Source of the DNA: Nitrospinota bacterium
GTDB lineage: Bacteria; Nitrospirota; Nitrospiria; Nitrospirales; UBA8639
Direction of reading: 5' to 3'
DNA: 10,006 nucleotides
Assembly (NCBI GenBank): GCA_022561525.1
Contig: JADFRB010000023.1
Span: 1,169 to 11,174, forward strand
Part shown: piece by piece, positions 858 to 10,006 of the stretch
How positions within the stretch are numbered: position 1 is the first letter of the stretch
How the letters are laid out: the number at the start of each line of letters is the position of its first letter
Position numbers and translations under genes: made by a program
Notes under the pieces: generated by a model
Databases searched by the model: none
Told to the model about the DNA's origin: nothing
What the model saw: the letters and a program-made list of their open reading frames with translations, nothing else

Positions 858-1760
858 GTGCAACGTAACTCGGGTGTTCAGGTGACGATAGCTCAGATAG
901 GTGTTGGAGGAGTATGGCTGGCTGTATTGTTCAGTGTGGGGTTAGCTTTTGGCCAACCTTTACCAAGGTTCATTCATCAACCGGAGGAGTTTTTTCCTGA
1001 TCAAGCCGGTAATGAATGGCGCTATCAAGGCCGAATTGTTGAAGGGGCCGTGAATCAAATCGCCGATAAAACCTTTGTGAATATTTCTACTGTGACCGGG
1101 AAGGAAAAGATTGATGGCGTCAATGTAACAGTCTTTCATGATTCCAATCCTGGGAACCAAGGTCCCACGGATAGTTATTATCTGCGGGATGCGGCAGGCA
1201 TTCGTTATTATGGATCGAAGCCTGGTACCCGGCTAGAAAGACAATTGGTGCCGTATCAGATTATCCGATTTCCCTTGGAAATCCCGAGCTCTTTTGAGCA
1301 ACTGAATCGAACGAATTTAAATCTCGGATTAGACCTTGATCATGATGGCCAAGCGGAAAAAGTGGATGTATTTGCGACCGTGACTCTTCATGGCCAGGAA
1401 ACTATTACTGTCCCTGCCGGGACCTATGAGAATGCCGTCCGGATGGAAGCGAACATGAAACTCTTGGTGCATTTGTCGCGTGATGGGACGCAGGTGAAAG
1501 GATTCGATTCGATGACGGTGTGGTTTGTGAAAGATGTCGGGTTGGTGAAATATTCGGAGCGACAAATGATTCCCAACCCCCGCACGGGACAAGATCGATT
1601 GATTGAAATAACCGAAGAACTGCAAGAGGCAACATTGCAGGGCGGAACACAGCTATTGAGTGGGCGCAAAGCCTCGACGCATGGTGTTCTCACTGGTCAC
1701 ACGTTGGACCATGAATTGTTGCAAGTACCCTTCCCCTCCCGCCTTGGTGCCGACCCCTGA
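858..1760 (+). CDS. Secreted protein of unknown function
   Basis: A 300-residue protein I cannot assign to a named family. It starts at a GTG with GGGAG 8 nt upstream; a second in-frame GTG lies at 882. Residues 14-32 form a hydrophobic segment ending AFG, consistent with a signal peptide and export; no lipobox is seen. The mature part looks beta-rich: FFPDQAGNEWRY (45-56), a SYYLRDAAGIRYYG stretch (106-119), and ETITVPAGTYENAVRME (181-197) followed by VWFVKDVGLVKY (221-232). This order (W-Y strand, YY.D..G, TVPAGTY..A, W...VGLVKY) is a layout I associate with uncharacterised exported bacterial proteins. DLDHDGQAEKVD (159-170) resembles a DxDxDG calcium loop. Residues 266-300 lie antisense to the end of putA and look like a non-conserved tail. 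Its divergent neighbour is the SDR gene; no functional link is evident. Confidence 0.8.
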   Translation: MQRNSGVQVTIAQIGVGGVWLAVLFSVGLAFGQPLPRFIHQPEEFFPDQAGNEWRYQGRIVEGAVNQIADKTFVNISTVTGKEKIDGVNVTVFHDSNPGNQGPTDSYYLRDAAGIRYYGSKPGTRLERQLVPYQIIRFPLEIPSSFEQLNRTNLNLGLDLDHDGQAEKVDVFATVTLHGQETITVPAGTYENAVRMEANMKLLVHLSRDGTQVKGFDSMTVWFVKDVGLVKYSERQMIPNPRTGQDRLIEITEELQEATLQGGTQLLSGRKASTHGVLTGHTLDHELLQVPFPSRLGADP

Positions 1761-4628
1761 AAGTCGATGTCCGCCAAAAGGCTGCCGTCCCACCAATGAT
1801 CCCGTGATAGGGCGATTGATGTAGAAATTTCCCACATCAAAGGCTTCACGGGCCCGTTGGATATTCGCTGGGCTTCGTGAGTACACTCCGCCGGTCAGGG
1901 CAAAATCCGATTGCATGGCCATAGTCAGCGCATCCTCAAATGATGGGCTTCGAAGGACAGCCACCAATGGCCCAAAGATTTCTTCTTGCGCCATCCGGTG
2001 ATGTGGCTGGATGTCTCCCACAATCACCGGTCCTTGAAACCATCCTTCACTCTCAATGACTCGGTCCAGCAACACGGTGCCTTCCTGGCGGGCAATATCC
2101 ACATATTCCCGTACTTTGTGTAGCGCCCGTTGATCGATCATCGGTCCCATTTGATTACTGGGATCTTCGGGGGGGCCGATATGCAGACTGTTAGCGGCTT
2201 GGATGAGTCTTTCCATGAACTCGTCATAGACCGGTTCAAGAACAATGGCTCGTGAGCATGCGGAACATTTTTGGCCCTGATATCCAGTGAAGGAGTACAA
2301 CACCCCGTGCACGGCTTCGTCCAAATCCGCGGTTTCATCAATAATGATGGCATTCTTTCCACCCATTTCCGCAATGGCATGTGTTACATGATGTTGTCCG
2401 GGTTGCACCTTCGATGCCTGGTTGATGATTTGAAGTCCGACCTCTTTTGATCCGGTAAATGCAATGACATGAATCTGAGGATGCGAAACGAGGGCTTTGC
2501 CAATCTCCGGCCCGCCGGGAAGGAAATGAAGCACGCCATCAGGCAAACCCGCTTCTCGAAAAAGCTGAGATAGATGATAGCCCATCATCGGTGAACGCTC
2601 GGATGGTTTGAACAGCACGGCGTTACCCGTGACGAGCGCGGAAGATACCAGTCCGGTTGGAATGGCCAAAGAGAAGTTCCAAGGAGAAATCACAACCGCC
2701 AATCCGCGAGGCCGCCATTCGAGATGATTCAGCTCCCCAGGTTCTTGCCCAAGCCGTTGGGGTCGGCCTAATCGTCGCATCTCCCGTGCATAAAATTCCA
2801 GAAAATCGATGGCTTCGGCAATGTCGCCATCGGCCTCTCGCCATGGTTTGCCCGTTTCAAAAATTTCCCACGCCGCGAGTTCATGCCGACGTTGCCGCAT
2901 GAGTTCGGCGACCCGACATAAATAATCCGCGCGCGTATCCGCCGTTGTCGCCCGCCATTGTTTCCATGCAGCCTGAGCCGATTGTATGACTCCTTCGATT
3001 TCCGCAGGAGCGTAGCTTGGCATCCTGACAATAATTTCGTTCGGGCGACTTGGATTGGTGGAAACCAGTTCATCCTTGAGTTGTCCGACGGTGGGCGGGA
3101 CATAAAATTTCACTGTCTTTCCCAGTTGGCCTTTCACGCTCTCAATCGCTTCTGTCATGGCCTGGCGAGCTGGTTCTCGGGAGAAGTCGGTGTACGGTTC
3201 ATTTTTAAAAGATTGACCGATGTCTTGTTCATGAATCATGGCGTGATGTCCAGCGGCATGAGAGGTATGTGGAGGGGCCAGCAATACTTCAAGCGGTGTC
3301 TCATGATCTCGCTGCTTCGAGATAAAGGATTCATTCGACGTGTTTTCCAGAAGTCGCCGTACGAGATACGCCATTCCGGGGATCAATTCCCCAACTGGCG
3401 TATACACACGAACGCGCCTGCCATATTTTACCACGGCATGTTGTAATGCATCGGCCATGCCATACAGAGATTGGAATTCATAGTTGTCGGGAGCGAAGTC
3501 ATGGGCTTGGGCAATGGCTTCGGCATGGGCCAGGCTTCGTAAATTATGCGTGCCAAACGCGGGACGGAACAGAGTGGGGTGGGCGAGTAGTTTGCCACTG
3601 ATGTATTCAAAGTTGGCATCGGTTTCTGCTTTGTGCCGCAACACCGGGATTGGCCAGCCACGCTGTTCGTTTTGAATAGTCTCCGCATCCCAGTATGCCC
3701 CTTTTACTAAACGAATGGTAATAGGCGTGCCACGCTGTTGTACCCAATCAACCATGCGATCGAGCGTCATATCCGCATCGCGTAAATAGGTTTGGAGCGC
3801 AATCCCCGCACCGGCATAGGTGCGATAGGCGGGTTCTGAGAAAATCCGCATGAAAATTTCGTAGGTCAGATCTTTCAGCTCATATTGCTCCATATCGAAG
3901 GTAATCGAGGCAGGTAGTTGTGACGCAAGATTCAAAATGGGACGCAGTCTTGATGCCACGCCTTCGAAACTCCCATCAGGGTCAGCCGAATTGAGCTGGG
4001 AGTACAGGGCAGAAATTTTGATTGAGAGATTGGTTCGGGGGAGCAGGCCGTGATGGTCCTGTTCCAATAACGGTTGACTCGGCCATCGTTGTGCGTTTTC
4101 GTGATACACCCGAAGGGCATCGAGACAATGGTCTCGATAGGAATCGGCTTCGGCCTCGCTCACCGTGGCTTCCCCAAGAAGGTCTACGGATGCGCATCGT
4201 CCGGAACGCCAGAGTTTACCAAGTACCGGCATGGCATTGGTCATGGAATCGCCGGCCATAAACGTATGCGCCATGCGCGTGAATTGCCGTCGAAGTACGA
4301 GGGCTCCCACATGCGAACCAATCCAAGAAGACGGAAGTTTCTGAAGTGACCACTTTAGTGGCTTGGGAAGAATCGGTGTGCCGCCAAAATATTCGGCCAA
4401 GAGGCGTGTGAACTGCTGGTCAGTTTTCAAAGTAGGGAGGACATCGACAAAACGAAAAAGCTGAACCTTGAAATCCTCATCCCGCATCCCCCAGGCCATC
4501 AGCAGATCATTCCACCACCGTTGGCTCAGTATCGTTGCCGTACTGGTCTTCGAGTGATCAGCCAGCGTCTTGCCGATTTGTTGGATAGAAGGTTCCAGCA
4601 GCTCTTCAGAGATCATACCAGCCCTCAT
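1653..4628 (-). CDS. putA: Bifunctional proline dehydrogenase / L-glutamate gamma-semialdehyde dehydrogenase PutA
   Basis: Oxidises proline to glutamate in two steps: an FAD-dependent proline dehydrogenase, then an NAD-dependent aldehyde dehydrogenase, with channelling between them; PutA acts at the inner membrane face and passes electrons to quinone. The 991-residue length fits the short PutA class lacking the N-terminal ribbon-helix-helix DNA-binding domain, so it is not expected to repress its own gene. Dehydrogenase barrel (about 195-435): LSIKISALYSQ (201-211), ITFDMEQYE (242-250), TIRLVKGAYWD (304-314), and the substrate-binding arginines Arg424-Arg425 in YLVRRLLENTSNESF. Aldehyde dehydrogenase domain (about 525-985): SPWNF (648-652), GNAVLFKPSE (668-677), FTGSKEVG (724-731), Glu754 in AEMGGKN, catalytic Cys788 in GQKCSACSR, EEIFGP (882-887), and the C-terminal QPFGGHRLSGVG. 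An ATG four codons in (4616) has GAGGG at good spacing and may be the true start. The 3' end overlaps the convergent secreted-protein gene by 108 bp. Confidence 0.97.
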   Translation of the reverse strand: MRAGMISEELLEPSIQQIGKTLADHSKTSTATILSQRWWNDLLMAWGMRDEDFKVQLFRFVDVLPTLKTDQQFTRLLAEYFGGTPILPKPLKWSLQKLPSSWIGSHVGALVLRRQFTRMAHTFMAGDSMTNAMPVLGKLWRSGRCASVDLLGEATVSEAEADSYRDHCLDALRVYHENAQRWPSQPLLEQDHHGLLPRTNLSIKISALYSQLNSADPDGSFEGVASRLRPILNLASQLPASITFDMEQYELKDLTYEIFMRIFSEPAYRTYAGAGIALQTYLRDADMTLDRMVDWVQQRGTPITIRLVKGAYWDAETIQNEQRGWPIPVLRHKAETDANFEYISGKLLAHPTLFRPAFGTHNLRSLAHAEAIAQAHDFAPDNYEFQSLYGMADALQHAVVKYGRRVRVYTPVGELIPGMAYLVRRLLENTSNESFISKQRDHETPLEVLLAPPHTSHAAGHHAMIHEQDIGQSFKNEPYTDFSREPARQAMTEAIESVKGQLGKTVKFYVPPTVGQLKDELVSTNPSRPNEIIVRMPSYAPAEIEGVIQSAQAAWKQWRATTADTRADYLCRVAELMRQRRHELAAWEIFETGKPWREADGDIAEAIDFLEFYAREMRRLGRPQRLGQEPGELNHLEWRPRGLAVVISPWNFSLAIPTGLVSSALVTGNAVLFKPSERSPMMGYHLSQLFREAGLPDGVLHFLPGGPEIGKALVSHPQIHVIAFTGSKEVGLQIINQASKVQPGQHHVTHAIAEMGGKNAIIIDETADLDEAVHGVLYSFTGYQGQKCSACSRAIVLEPVYDEFMERLIQAANSLHIGPPEDPSNQMGPMIDQRALHKVREYVDIARQEGTVLLDRVIESEGWFQGPVIVGDIQPHHRMAQEEIFGPLVAVLRSPSFEDALTMAMQSDFALTGGVYSRSPANIQRAREAFDVGNFYINRPITGSLVGRQPFGGHRLSGVGTKAGGEGYLQQFMVQRVTSENTMRRGFAPTQ

Positions 4629-7084: not shown

Positions 7085-7354
7085 CAGTTTGGGCTTGTCT
7101 ACTGTTTTCCCGAGCAAGGAAGGAGACGGAACCGAACGACACACCTCAGGGCAACAGCACGGTTCAGAGTCCACAATTTCTATGACAATCATTGGCATGT
7201 ACAGAAACATCAACCAACAATGATCAAGGGAACAGGCCAGTCTATGTCATAAGTTATCTAAGAACCTTCAGACAGGCATTCCACCTGGTAAGAAAAAATG
7301 GAACCATTTGTCGTGAATATTTCGCACTGTGGCATTATTCAACGGCTGGGCAAC

Positions 7355-8626
7355 ATGAACGTCTTGAAACCGCGTAGGTCGTTTGCCATAGCCCTGACCT
7401 TCTTCTCGGTTGTCGCCGGCTTCACTTCTTGCAATCTCCAATCCAGTACACCACCCACTCAACCCATTAAAGTGGGGATTCTCCATTCGTTAACCGGAAC
7501 CATGGCCATCAGTGAACGATCAGTCGTAGACGCCACACTATTGGCGATTGAAGAATTAAACGCCCAGGGAGGCGTGCTGGGCCGGAAGATTGAACCGATC
7601 GTCGTCGACGGCCAATCCAGTGAAGAACGGTTTGCGGAGTTGGCCAACCAACTTATTCATCGGGATCAGGTAAGTGTCCTGTTTGGCTGTTGGACCTCGG
7701 CCAGTCGCAAAAGAGTGAAGCCTGTGGTGGAAGACGCCGATCATTTGCTGTTTTATCCTGTTCAATATGAAGGTCTCGAACAATCGCGGAATATTATTTA
7801 CACCGGGGCTGCTCCCAATCAACAGATTATTCCCGCGGTCAAATGGAGCTTTGACCATTTAGGCAAGAGATTTTTTCTGATTGGGTCAGACTATGTGTTC
7901 CCGAGAACGGCCAACGCTATCATCAAAGCTCAAGTCGATGCCTTGGGTGGAGAAATCGTGGGTGAGTACTACCTCCAACTGGGCACGAAGGACGTTGCTG
8001 AAGCGATTCAAGCCATAGTTCATACACAACCCGATGTCATTCTTAACACTATCAACGGGGACAGTAATGAGGCATTTTTCCATTCGCTCCGAGCCGCTGG
8101 CGTGTCGGCGGATTCAATCCCAACCATGTCCTTCAGCATTGCCGAAGATGAACTCAGAACCTTAGGTCCCAAGAACATGGAAGGAGATTATGCGGTGTGG
8201 AATTATTTCCAATCGATTGATACGGAGGAAAACCGAGAGTTTGTCTCCCGGTTTAAAGCCCGGTACGGGGCCCACCGTGTGACAGACGATCCGATGGAAG
8301 CCGGGTATTTCGGGGTGTACTTATGGGCCCAAGCGGTGGAAGCCGCCGGATCTGATCAGCCGTCTTTAGTTCGACCAGCTTTGAGCGATCAAAGTGTTCT
8401 CGCCCCGGAAGGGATGGTCTCTGTGGATGGTGCAACCAACCATACATGGAAAACCGTCAGGGTGGGACAAATCCAAAGCGACGGTCAGTTTTCCATTCTC
8501 TGGACGTCCGATCATGCCATACGACCTGTGCCGTACCCTCCCTATCGCTCACGGACAGAGTGGGAAGACTTTCTCCATCACCTGTATGTGGGATGGGGAA
8601 ACCGCTGGGCGAATCCTCATTCCTGA
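7355..8626 (+). CDS. urtA: UrtA-type urea/amide-binding lipoprotein, apparently paired with a sensor kinase
   Basis: A 423-residue periplasmic binding protein of the UrtA/AmiC group. The ATG at 7355 is chosen over the one at 7298 because it directly precedes a lipoprotein signal (NVLKPRRSFAIALTFFSVVAGFTSC) with Cys26 as the likely lipidated residue; the lipobox FTSC is slightly atypical. UrtA hallmarks appear in order: KVGILHSLTGTMAISE (39-54), GGVLG (72-76), FGCWTSASRK (110-119), FYPVQYEG (133-140), GAAPNQQ (151-157), GSDYVFPRTAN (177-187), NGDSNEAFF (234-242) and a DDPMEAGYFGVYLW region (311-324). Binding of urea or a short amide is inferred from this. After the usual C-terminus there is a tail with TEWEDFLHHLYVGWGNRW (401-418) that I do not recall in transport UrtA proteins. 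No urtBCDE permease genes follow within the window; a histidine kinase starts 12 bp downstream in the same operon. Its role is therefore more likely ligand sensing than uptake. Confidence 0.9.
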   Translation: MNVLKPRRSFAIALTFFSVVAGFTSCNLQSSTPPTQPIKVGILHSLTGTMAISERSVVDATLLAIEELNAQGGVLGRKIEPIVVDGQSSEERFAELANQLIHRDQVSVLFGCWTSASRKRVKPVVEDADHLLFYPVQYEGLEQSRNIIYTGAAPNQQIIPAVKWSFDHLGKRFFLIGSDYVFPRTANAIIKAQVDALGGEIVGEYYLQLGTKDVAEAIQAIVHTQPDVILNTINGDSNEAFFHSLRAAGVSADSIPTMSFSIAEDELRTLGPKNMEGDYAVWNYFQSIDTEENREFVSRFKARYGAHRVTDDPMEAGYFGVYLWAQAVEAAGSDQPSLVRPALSDQSVLAPEGMVSVDGATNHTWKTVRVGQIQSDGQFSILWTSDHAIRPVPYPPYRSRTEWEDFLHHLYVGWGNRWANPHS

Positions 8627-8638
8627 CCTGGAATTCCT

Positions 8639-10006
8639 ATGCGTTTCGACTGGTGGAAAAGGCTTAGACTCTCTACCCAATTAGTGCTCGGGTTTGTCGT
8701 GATGGGGGCGATCCCCTTGTCCCTGGTCACTATCATCACTTTTGAAAACGCCAAGAATTCCCTGGAAGATGCTGTCACCGACCGGATCTTGGCCATTGCT
8801 TCCCATAACGCCGAACGAATGAATGCGTTTCTCAATGAGAGAATCATTGATGTCACCACCCTGGCGCGCATGCCGTCGATTATTGAAGCCATGGAGAAAT
8901 TTGATGCAGCCTTTACGATCGGGCAACAAATTTACTCTGTGGAGTATATGACGATTGAACAGGAGCTGAAACCCTTCCTCACCGACTACAAAGAATCGTC
9001 CAGATATGGCGATTTATTCTTAATATCCCCACAAGGCGATACAATTTTTTCCGTCAACCGGGCTGAGGAACTGGGAACCAATCTGATCACCGGACTATTT
9101 CAGAATACCGCCCTGGCTAAGGCGTTCGATCGGGCGAGAACGTTATTGGAAACCGGGATCTCGGATTTCGAGCCTTATTTCGCTCAAAATAGGACAGTTG
9201 CATTTCTAGCCGCACCGGTGTTTCGACAAGGCAAATTTCTCGGAGTCGTTGCCCTTGAAGTCACAGATGAAGACATCCTGACCCTCACACAAGATTATTG
9301 GGGATTGGGACAGACCGGTGAGGTGGTGATTGCCTATCGACGCCCGAATGGAGCCCTCTTGGTCAGTCCGCTTCGGCATGAACCTCGGACCTCTTTCAAT
9401 AAACTTATCCCCTTTAACACGGACGTCGCATACCCCATCCATTTAGCCGTGCAAGGGAAGCGTGGATCAGGACTGTCTTATGACTACCGCGGTGAACGCG
9501 TCTTGGCGGCCTGGGATTATTTGCCTTCGTATCGATGGGGAATCGTAGTCAAAATCGATGCCAAGGAAGCGTTCTCCCCAATTGCCAAGTTGAAAGCCAT
9601 CACCCTTTTTAGCGGATTGCTTTTAATGATTGTGTTGGCTGTCGGAGCGTTCTTCATTGGAAATAATATGTCCAAACCACTTACCAATCTCGTCAACCAA
9701 ACCAAGCGGTTTCGCCGACATGATTTCTCGCAACGGGTCCCAGAATCCGGCCCCCAGGAAGTGAGCGTATTAGCCGGAGCGTTCAATGAGATGGCTCAGG
9801 AATTGAACCAGTCGTATTCGGAATTGAAAAACAACTTAGGTGAATTGTCGAGGGCCAATAACAACCTGGCGCGCGAAATGGCTGAGCGTCAACGTGTTGA
9901 AGAGTCTCTGAAGCAGAAAGAGCTTCAAATTCAAAATGCCCAGCGCATGGAAGCCATTGGGACGCTGGCTGGAGGCATTGCGCATGATTTTAATAATATT
10001 TTGTCC
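8639..10006 (+). CDS. Membrane sensor histidine kinase (partial, C-terminus outside window)
   Basis: 456 residues are visible from an ATG at 8639 and the frame stays open at the end of the window. Layout: a transmembrane helix (about 13-33); a large periplasmic sensor region (34-318) of double-Cache type, with YGDLFLISPQGDTIFSVN (123-140) followed by GTNLITG, an AAPVFRQGKFLGVVALEV stretch, and GLGQTGEVVIA from 222; a second transmembrane helix (321-341); a HAMP domain (342-389, with SKPL and VLAGAFNEMA); a coiled-coil linker (about 390-434); and the start of HisKA, with the phospho-acceptor His449 in GGIAHDFNNILS. The AHDFNN form is typical of kinases that often continue into HATPase and receiver domains, so a hybrid kinase is likely but not visible. 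A weak GGA precedes the start at 8 nt. Sharing an operon with the UrtA-like lipoprotein suggests that protein is its signal input or co-sensor. The phosphorelay partner is presumably further downstream. Confidence 0.93.
   Translation, partial: MRFDWWKRLRLSTQLVLGFVVMGAIPLSLVTIITFENAKNSLEDAVTDRILAIASHNAERMNAFLNERIIDVTTLARMPSIIEAMEKFDAAFTIGQQIYSVEYMTIEQELKPFLTDYKESSRYGDLFLISPQGDTIFSVNRAEELGTNLITGLFQNTALAKAFDRARTLLETGISDFEPYFAQNRTVAFLAAPVFRQGKFLGVVALEVTDEDILTLTQDYWGLGQTGEVVIAYRRPNGALLVSPLRHEPRTSFNKLIPFNTDVAYPIHLAVQGKRGSGLSYDYRGERVLAAWDYLPSYRWGIVVKIDAKEAFSPIAKLKAITLFSGLLLMIVLAVGAFFIGNNMSKPLTNLVNQTKRFRRHDFSQRVPESGPQEVSVLAGAFNEMAQELNQSYSELKNNLGELSRANNNLAREMAERQRVEESLKQKELQIQNAQRMEAIGTLAGGIAHDFNNILS

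Follow-up and report, generated by a model that had tools for sequence, protein, structure and literature searches.

A UrtA-type binding protein paired with a sensor histidine kinase in the Nitronereus genus: a probable receptor for urea or a close analogue

A stretch of 10,006 nucleotides from a Nitrospinota bacterium (assembly GCA_022561525.1, contig JADFRB010000023.1, positions 1,169 to 11,174; the whole stretch is called the window here) ends with a gene for a UrtA-type binding protein and, on the same strand, a gene for a dCache-HAMP sensor histidine kinase. Does this protein belong to a urea transporter, or is it the ligand-binding part of a receptor? The observed pair was confirmed, and our sequence comparisons across genomes indicate that it is a real, conserved sensory unit. 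It is quite probably a substrate-binding-protein-dependent receptor for urea or a very close analogue. The data presented here that carry this reading are the pairing across phyla, the kept pocket, the clade of tail-bearing proteins, the near relatives with the pair in which no permease genes were found, and the fusions to signalling modules.

The pair in the window and its nearest relatives

7355..8626, plus strand: UrtA-type binding protein gene, 423 aa from the ATG at 7355 (442 aa from the in-frame ATG at 7298)
7355..7432, plus strand: signal or anchor segment with a weak lipobox, up to Cys26 (direct reading; modelled helix 8–24)
8627..8638, plus strand: intergenic gap of 12 bp
8639..10006, plus strand: dCache-HAMP sensor histidine kinase, first 456 aa (Pfam), cut by the contig end
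8759..9550, plus strand: periplasmic double Cache domain (dCache_1, residues 41–304) between two transmembrane helices
9653..9811, plus strand: HAMP domain (Pfam, 49.5 bits; residues 339–391)
9959..10006, plus strand: truncated beginning of HisKA, including the H-box AGGIAHDFNN (direct reading; HisKA scored in the ortholog)

The 423-aa product scored 506.1 bits with the TIGR03407 UrtA profile, above the curated cut-off of 492.75, and 548.5 bits with Peripla_BP_5, and the closest solved structure was a urea-binding protein with 57% identity to it. The preliminary description of this DNA had called the protein UrtA-like, which the profile score bears out. It had also spoken of a lipoprotein; Cys26 is present, but the lipobox is weak (F-T-S-C, vs L-A-S-C in the same-genus ortholog described below), and by a rough rule most of 120 homologues listed from a protein database search had a hydrophobic anchor without lipobox (92/120; 27 were lipobox-like and one was of another kind). 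The open reading frame (ORF) may start at ATG 7298 or ATG 7355 and ends at 8626; with the kinase starting at the ATG at 8639, 12 bp separate the two genes, the length first reported for this gap.

The kinase reading frame stops at residue 456, just inside the H-box sequence GGIAHDFNNI, and the window end is the end of the contig (C19, position 11174) in an assembly that is 64% complete. HisKA was therefore unscored in the window, and no gene could be read downstream of the kinase. Pfam matches of the window kinase at E 0.001 or better were dCache_1 and HAMP, and HisKA was scored in the same-genus ortholog, in agreement with the two-transmembrane Cache-HAMP-HisKA kinase proposed at the outset. 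The LuxQ-specific periplasmic domain of Pfam was not among these matches. The predicted structure of the kinase sensor showed a dCache fold and, in a structure comparison, matched the ligand-binding dCache domains of PctA, Mlp24, TlpQ, and DctB; LuxQ and TorS chains were absent among the listed matches of this model, which excludes nothing. When the whole kinase alignment was searched as a profile against solved structures, almost every one of the 60 listed rows was a kinase core, and none was a dCache chain.

Relatives were needed because the window genome (G000) is 64% complete. Candidatus Nitronereus thalassa (G027), of the same genus and 98% complete, carries the same pair in the same order and with the same 12-bp gap: a 423-aa binding protein (76% identity to the window ORF when read as 442 aa) and an 825-aa dCache-HAMP-HisKA-HATPase-REC hybrid kinase (71%, kinase part). 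The receiver is thus fused to this kinase, and no separate regulator gene directly follows it. The other window ORFs of at least 150 aa had no full counterpart in G027 within the 20 kb compared, the sole further match being to the aldehyde dehydrogenase part of PutA (33%). A chance pairing of the two genes was rejected, because the pair was kept while the flanking genes changed. Across 48 genomes of the family, a UrtA-type match was found in 17, and the sensor domain was nearly full-length only in G000, G027, and G021. The two genes overlap by 4 bp in G021, and its kinase has an extra GAF domain.

Of the 48 family genomes, 12 had urease alpha and 10 had UrtB. The preliminary description had seen no transporter genes with the pair, and this holds in the near-complete relatives: urtBCDE did not follow the pair in G027 and G021. 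UrtB was not found in G000, G027, G021, or G026 (same genus), and UrtC had no match in G000, G027, and G021, a negative that in G000, at 64% completeness, would say little by itself. With regard to UrtABCDE, no permease genes lie beside the pair in G027 and G021; with regard to sensor kinases, the binding-protein gene adjoins a co-oriented sensor kinase gene, and the arrangement is kept across genomes. Public records name the G027 binding protein a urea ABC transporter substrate-binding protein, and the best reading of these comparisons is that the family is misnamed in databases as transporter subunits.

Two further observations concern these genomes. Besides the pair, G021 has another UrtA-like gene, divergent and 517 aa long, for which no partner is evident (L103:8164-9717). 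Upstream of the pair in the window, a proline utilisation protein (PutA_N, Pro_dh, Aldedh; 1653-4628, minus strand) is seemingly unrelated, and it does not adjoin the pair in G027.

A tail-bearing clade with several signalling partners

8507..8623, plus strand: C-terminal tail, residues 385–423, with a helix at 400–413 and an end containing W414 and W418 (tail profile, 77.5 bits)

To place the pair more widely, a set of 100 loci was assembled from the best 80 of 592 confirmed stretches of a genome-contig scan and 20 loci from searches of the window genome and family. Three were dropped before counting, L017 and L020 as remote matches and L019 for want of a UrtA frame, leaving 97 classified loci. 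Among them, 64 had at least one of urtB–urtE downstream and 23 had a sensor gene adjoining (L024, with a kinase next door as well as a urt operon, was counted as receptor-linked); the rest were five cyanobacterial histidine kinase fusions, one Ser/Thr kinase fusion, and four unclassified loci. The pair was also found in Verrucomicrobiota, Zetaproteobacteria, Magnetovibrio, Thalassomonas, planctomycetes, and cyanobacteria.

The binding protein of the window ends in a tail with tryptophans at 403, 414, and 418; when 75 selected receptor-type proteins were aligned, the window protein among them, 414 and 418 were invariant and 403 nearly so. The tail profile reached 20 bits or more in 19 of the 23 receptor-linked proteins and in the Ser/Thr kinase fusion of the set (1/1), vs none of the 64 transporter-linked proteins, the five cyanobacterial fusions, or the four unclassified ones. 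The receptor-linked proteins below this threshold were L034 (17.4 bits) and three from G022–G024 (<8 bits), and no transporter-linked UrtA (n = 64) reached 4 bits. Tail-bearing homologues were thus not mainly in transport operons; the opposite outcome would have counted against the original proposal. The tail is, by its distribution, a marker of the receptor clade. In a search of 5.8 billion proteins (at least 7,999 candidates scored, 120 listed), all 120 listed proteins bore the tail, with a minimum of 57.2 bits; since the tail itself contributes to the score, such a listing is biased towards proteins that have it. Alignments with solved urea-binding proteins stop at about residue 404–409 and leave the last residues of the tail uncovered. 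Among 40 matches listed from plasmids (760 records), 39 ended by query residue 404; a Methylovirgula plasmid homologue, annotated urtA, covered residues 28–423 with 46% identity.

Consistent with this distribution, a core tree built without the tail columns separated 53 tail-bearing proteins by a single branch (SH-aLRT 96.7) from 33 others, namely 26 labelled transport (including L054, whose context was unclassified), five cyanobacterial fusions, and two tail-less kinase-linked proteins; the trees were quick searches with support by SH-aLRT only. The proposed check, whether proteins with this tail form their own clade and neighbour kinases, thus gave a positive answer that reaches further than proposed: the neighbours are dCache-type kinases and also chemoreceptors, and fusions to Ser/Thr kinases occur. 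The cyanobacterial kinase fusions nested among transporter UrtA proteins in the trees, which points to at least two separate recruitments of UrtA into signalling. In line with co-inheritance, distances between UrtA-type proteins correlated with those between sensor domains (r 0.77, 31 of 32 pairs, L023 dropped), and 0 of 2000 permutations gave a value as high.

Among the two-gene partners of receptor-clade proteins (n = 27 scanned, L034 included), 14 were histidine kinases and 13 chemoreceptors; the scan left out the partners of L046, L047, L160, and L167, which are truncated at the end of a contig or flank. Histidine kinase outputs were identified by Pfam in G027, G021, L021, L022, L023, L024, L027, L029, L032, L034, L038, and L048 (the last counted through HATPase, with HisKA unscored), and chemoreceptor outputs in L033, L037, L039, L041, and L043. 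Partner dCache_1 scores were below the Pfam cut-off of 45 bits in many loci, and the domain was absent in L021 and L041. Separate receiver genes lay near L024, L027, and L048; receiver and receiver-GGDEF genes follow the pair at L027:4022-5769 and L048:13252-14745, which suggests that some lineages signal through cyclic-di-GMP. A hint at the ligand comes from Magnetovibrio, where an OmpR-type regulator gene on the opposite strand and then urtABCDE come after the pair, and the same contig carries a urease gene at a greater distance. L024 is the one tail-bearing protein near a urt operon, and its kinase lies between the two.

In Planctomycetia, 108 of 297 genomes had a match at E 1e-90 or better. 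The best 30 loci comprised 17 Ser/Thr kinase fusions with the binding domain C-terminal, 10 with a sensor-profile gene adjoining, and three with neither; UrtB was not seen in these 30, which were short. Eight of the ten sensor neighbours were scanned, and all eight were chemoreceptors. The fusions (17 among L143-L172; also L025) look like a cis version of the receptor with a tail-bearing UrtA-type domain. In cyanobacteria (match in 150/242 genomes), the best 30 loci included two tail-bearing proteins beside a dCache kinase (both kinases scanned), two tail-less kinase fusions, and 26 without tail, 25 of which had UrtB within the flank. Five single-chain UrtA-kinase proteins of cyanobacteria (L026, L028, L030, L035, L036; 4/5 Pfam-scanned) lack the tail.

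Three side observations touch the family. In G022–G024 (L104, L105), two very large hybrid kinases with many domains flank a UrtA-like gene that lacks the tail. In the 447-aa protein P0005 (longest contig 1900 bases), the tail runs into the apparent start of a receptor transmembrane helix, possibly a natural fusion of the pair. L023 is a pair on a contig of a genome labelled Thaumarchaeota and containing urease.

What might the tail do? A docking surface on the dCache domain, as first suggested for the window protein, would fit its presence in receptor-linked and absence in transporter-linked proteins, its absence in the cyanobacterial kinase fusions (the four scanned had no dCache match), and the invariance of Trp 414 and 418. 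However, of the 17 Ser/Thr kinase fusions of Planctomycetia, all but L162, which is truncated by its contig, have kept the tail, and no dCache-type gene lay in the stretch read around these fusions (about 1.5 kb downstream, little upstream), which argues against a role limited to dCache. The tail was also shortened in L029, L046, and L048, whose partners match a dCache-type sensor, and it was modelled with high confidence as a helix of the binding protein itself (pLDDT 96 and 93 for the block of residues 401–420, 63 for the last three residues). Because the Ser/Thr kinase fusions bear the tail with no dCache-type gene in the short stretch read, contact of the tail with dCache was not kept as a conclusion, and we regard it as rather unlikely.

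The pocket and its probable ligand

Nine positions are given as lying near urea in Prochlorococcus UrtA in excerpts of PMC10392092, and they map to the window as follows.

7691..7699, plus strand: pocket W113 and S115 (W120 and S122 of Prochlorococcus UrtA; residue mapping, PMC10392092)
7754..7771, plus strand: pocket Y134, Q137, and E139 (Y141, Q144, and E146; residue mapping)
7892..7900, plus strand: pocket Y180 and F182 (Y190 and F192; residue mapping)
8054..8056, plus strand: pocket N234 (N246; residue mapping)
8135..8137, plus strand: pocket S261 (S274; residue mapping)

All nine positions were identical in the window, and the same nine letters occurred in 119 of the 120 listed database matches. 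By these residues, urea is the best candidate for the ligand. Using the Prochlorococcus numbering, 18 of the 23 receptor-linked proteins kept Q144, N246, and S274; the five exceptions (L033, L037, L039, L043, L047) had A, V, and A at these positions and W at F192. Of 12 further two-gene loci, three had the canonical pocket and nine a changed one, and three loci without a recognised partner were changed as well. With one exception, the Planctomycetia fusions to Ser/Thr kinases had the canonical pocket (16/17).

A changed pocket (A, W, and V or P) characterises planctomycete two-gene loci L033, L037, L039, L043, L047, L146, L158-L160, L164-L167, and L169, in which the scanned partners were chemoreceptors (L047, L160, and L167 unscanned). 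These members probably bind another ligand, to judge from the substitutions. Where UrtA has Q144 and N246, AmiC carries P and V; the changed branch shares the V at N246 and so resembles this amide receptor in part. The window protein has Q and N there and thus lacks the AmiC pocket letters. Both Q144 and N246 are retained in L155 and L041, although these two are linked to chemoreceptors, which shows that the kind of output does not strictly follow the kind of pocket. L148 and L150 contain tandem UrtA-like genes, and the copy checked in each had a changed pocket.

Mechanism, rival explanations, and meaning

In the proposed mechanism, the UrtA-type protein would be tethered to the inner membrane, on its outer face, by its N-terminal helix or a lipid anchor and would bind urea or a very close analogue in its Venus-flytrap pocket. 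The periplasmic dCache domain of the neighbouring kinase would read the ligand state by contact, and the signal would pass through HAMP to HisKA/HATPase and then, as in the same-genus ortholog, to the fused receiver. This scheme is inferred also as regards the sense of the signal, be it activation or relief from inhibition, and the genes under its control.

In LuxP-LuxQ and TorT-TorS, a periplasmic binding protein is the ligand-binding subunit of a sensor kinase, for other ligands. The present pair is alike in this combination, and the LuxQ periplasmic family was not in the window Pfam scan. Helicobacter pylori reportedly shows chemotaxis to acid and urea. The target of AmiC from Pseudomonas aeruginosa is not known to be a membrane receptor. 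AmiC (1pea, 1qnl, 1qo0; 34–35% identity) shows the same fold family serving as a regulator and not as a transporter part, acts on AmiR (title of 1qo0), and has P and V in its pocket where UrtA has Q144 and N246. UrtA of UrtABCDE (TIGR03407; 7s6e, 7s6f, 8hic) and the urea-binding protein 8tg1 share the fold, 49–57% identity, and the nine pocket positions with the window protein, which differs from UrtA of UrtABCDE in its tail, its receptor partner, its side of the tree, and the lack of permease genes found in near relatives with the pair. Excerpts of PMC10384115 describe a closer arrangement in CuaD-CuaS-CuaR of Ruminiclostridium cellulolyticum, a membrane-anchored binding protein, distinct from the uptake binding protein, with a two-transmembrane HAMP histidine kinase. 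However, CuaD binds cellobiose, the extracytosolic part of CuaS is given there as without a predicted domain where the present kinase has dCache, and the receiver is fused to the kinase in the same-genus ortholog, unlike in CuaDSR. For GlnH-GlnX-PknG of Corynebacterium glutamicum, a periplasmic binding protein is suggested to steer a Ser/Thr kinase (excerpts of PMC9769921); these are separate proteins, whereas in planctomycetes a single chain contains both the UrtA-type domain and the kinase. One chemoreceptor with a Peripla_BP_5 ligand domain is recorded in the part of PMC8547431 concerned. A description of the tail-bearing UrtA-type receptor family was not found in the literature, as judged mainly by titles. 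Binding-protein-dependent sensor kinases were known before (LuxP-LuxQ, CuaDSR), and what we describe is a variant, not a new kind.

Several points weigh against a urea receptor. Among the 48 family genomes, the full pair occurs in only three, so that it is not universal, and G026, 99% complete, had no match to either protein. A search of 295 phylum genomes with the tail-bearing query at E 1e-120 gave five matches, two of them tail-bearing (G000 and G021), one tail-less and kinase-linked, and two in transport operons. The receptor-linked proteins of G022–G024, in the same family, lack the tail, and their kinases are weak for the dCache sensor. Common descent may account for part of the distance correlation and of the clade, and database listings favour high scorers. 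Urease alpha was not found in G000, G026, G027, or G021, no TIGR02712 urea carboxylase passed the cut-off in 20 genomes including G000, G027, and G021, and urease occurred in only 4 of 17 named two-gene genomes, whose completeness was not established. Urea carboxylase was thus set aside as an alternative urea route; the TIGR02712 matches in all 20 genomes were below the cut-off and look like other biotin-dependent carboxylases. With no urease, UrtB, UrtC, or over-cut-off urea carboxylase found in the nearest genomes, urea would have to be a cue there, not food.

The same lack of urea catabolism in the host group, found in our genome searches and cited in PMC10579370 as far as its excerpts go, also speaks for a receptor pair with a different ligand, such as a short aliphatic amide, a guanidine-like or another small nitrogen compound. 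TIGR03407-like transporters may also handle other amides, UrtBC-like transporter genes adjoining formamidase genes (excerpts of PMC3098086), and the planctomycete sister branch has a pocket changed to a partly AmiC-like form (Q144A, F192W, N246V). Yet the urea-contact positions of the window protein are all unchanged, its identity to a solved urea-binding protein is 57%, and the Magnetovibrio copy adjoins urtABCDE; we therefore think this other ligand unlikely. The protein might instead be an orphan transport subunit whose permease lies at another site in the genome, with the kinase as an incidental neighbour; the score above the UrtA transporter cut-off and the public name of the same-genus ortholog would fit this. 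Such a role is highly improbable, given that UrtB and UrtC were found in 0/3 family genomes with the full pair (of which G000 is only 64% complete; other permeases of the LIV type were not searched for), that the pair outlasts changes of its flanks, that tail and clade set it apart from transporters, and that signalling partners and fusions are many. The receptor may also have two inputs, with dCache binding a small ligand of its own and the UrtA-type protein adding a second; the likeness of the sensor model to ligand-binding dCache domains suggests as much, but a shared fold is no proof of a ligand, and we hold such a dual-input design to be distinctly unlikely. A receptor for urea or a very close analogue thus stays the preferred reading.

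To our knowledge, few bacterial urea receptors have been characterised. We consider it about evenly balanced whether these proteins form a large, overlooked family of urea receptors with a W-rich tail and three outputs, in which a planctomycete branch has been re-tuned and Nitronereus senses urea as a signal and not as food. If so, one binding module would feed histidine kinases, chemoreceptors, and Ser/Thr kinases. Because tail-bearing and transporter-linked UrtA proteins did not overlap in this sample, the tail may give a simple rule for telling receptors from transporters, and such a rule could correct genome-based claims of urea uptake. The pair also raises an ecological question, namely why a nitrite oxidiser that does not use urea would keep a urea-type receptor. 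A candidate answer is that urea may mark places where ammonia oxidisers will supply nitrite.

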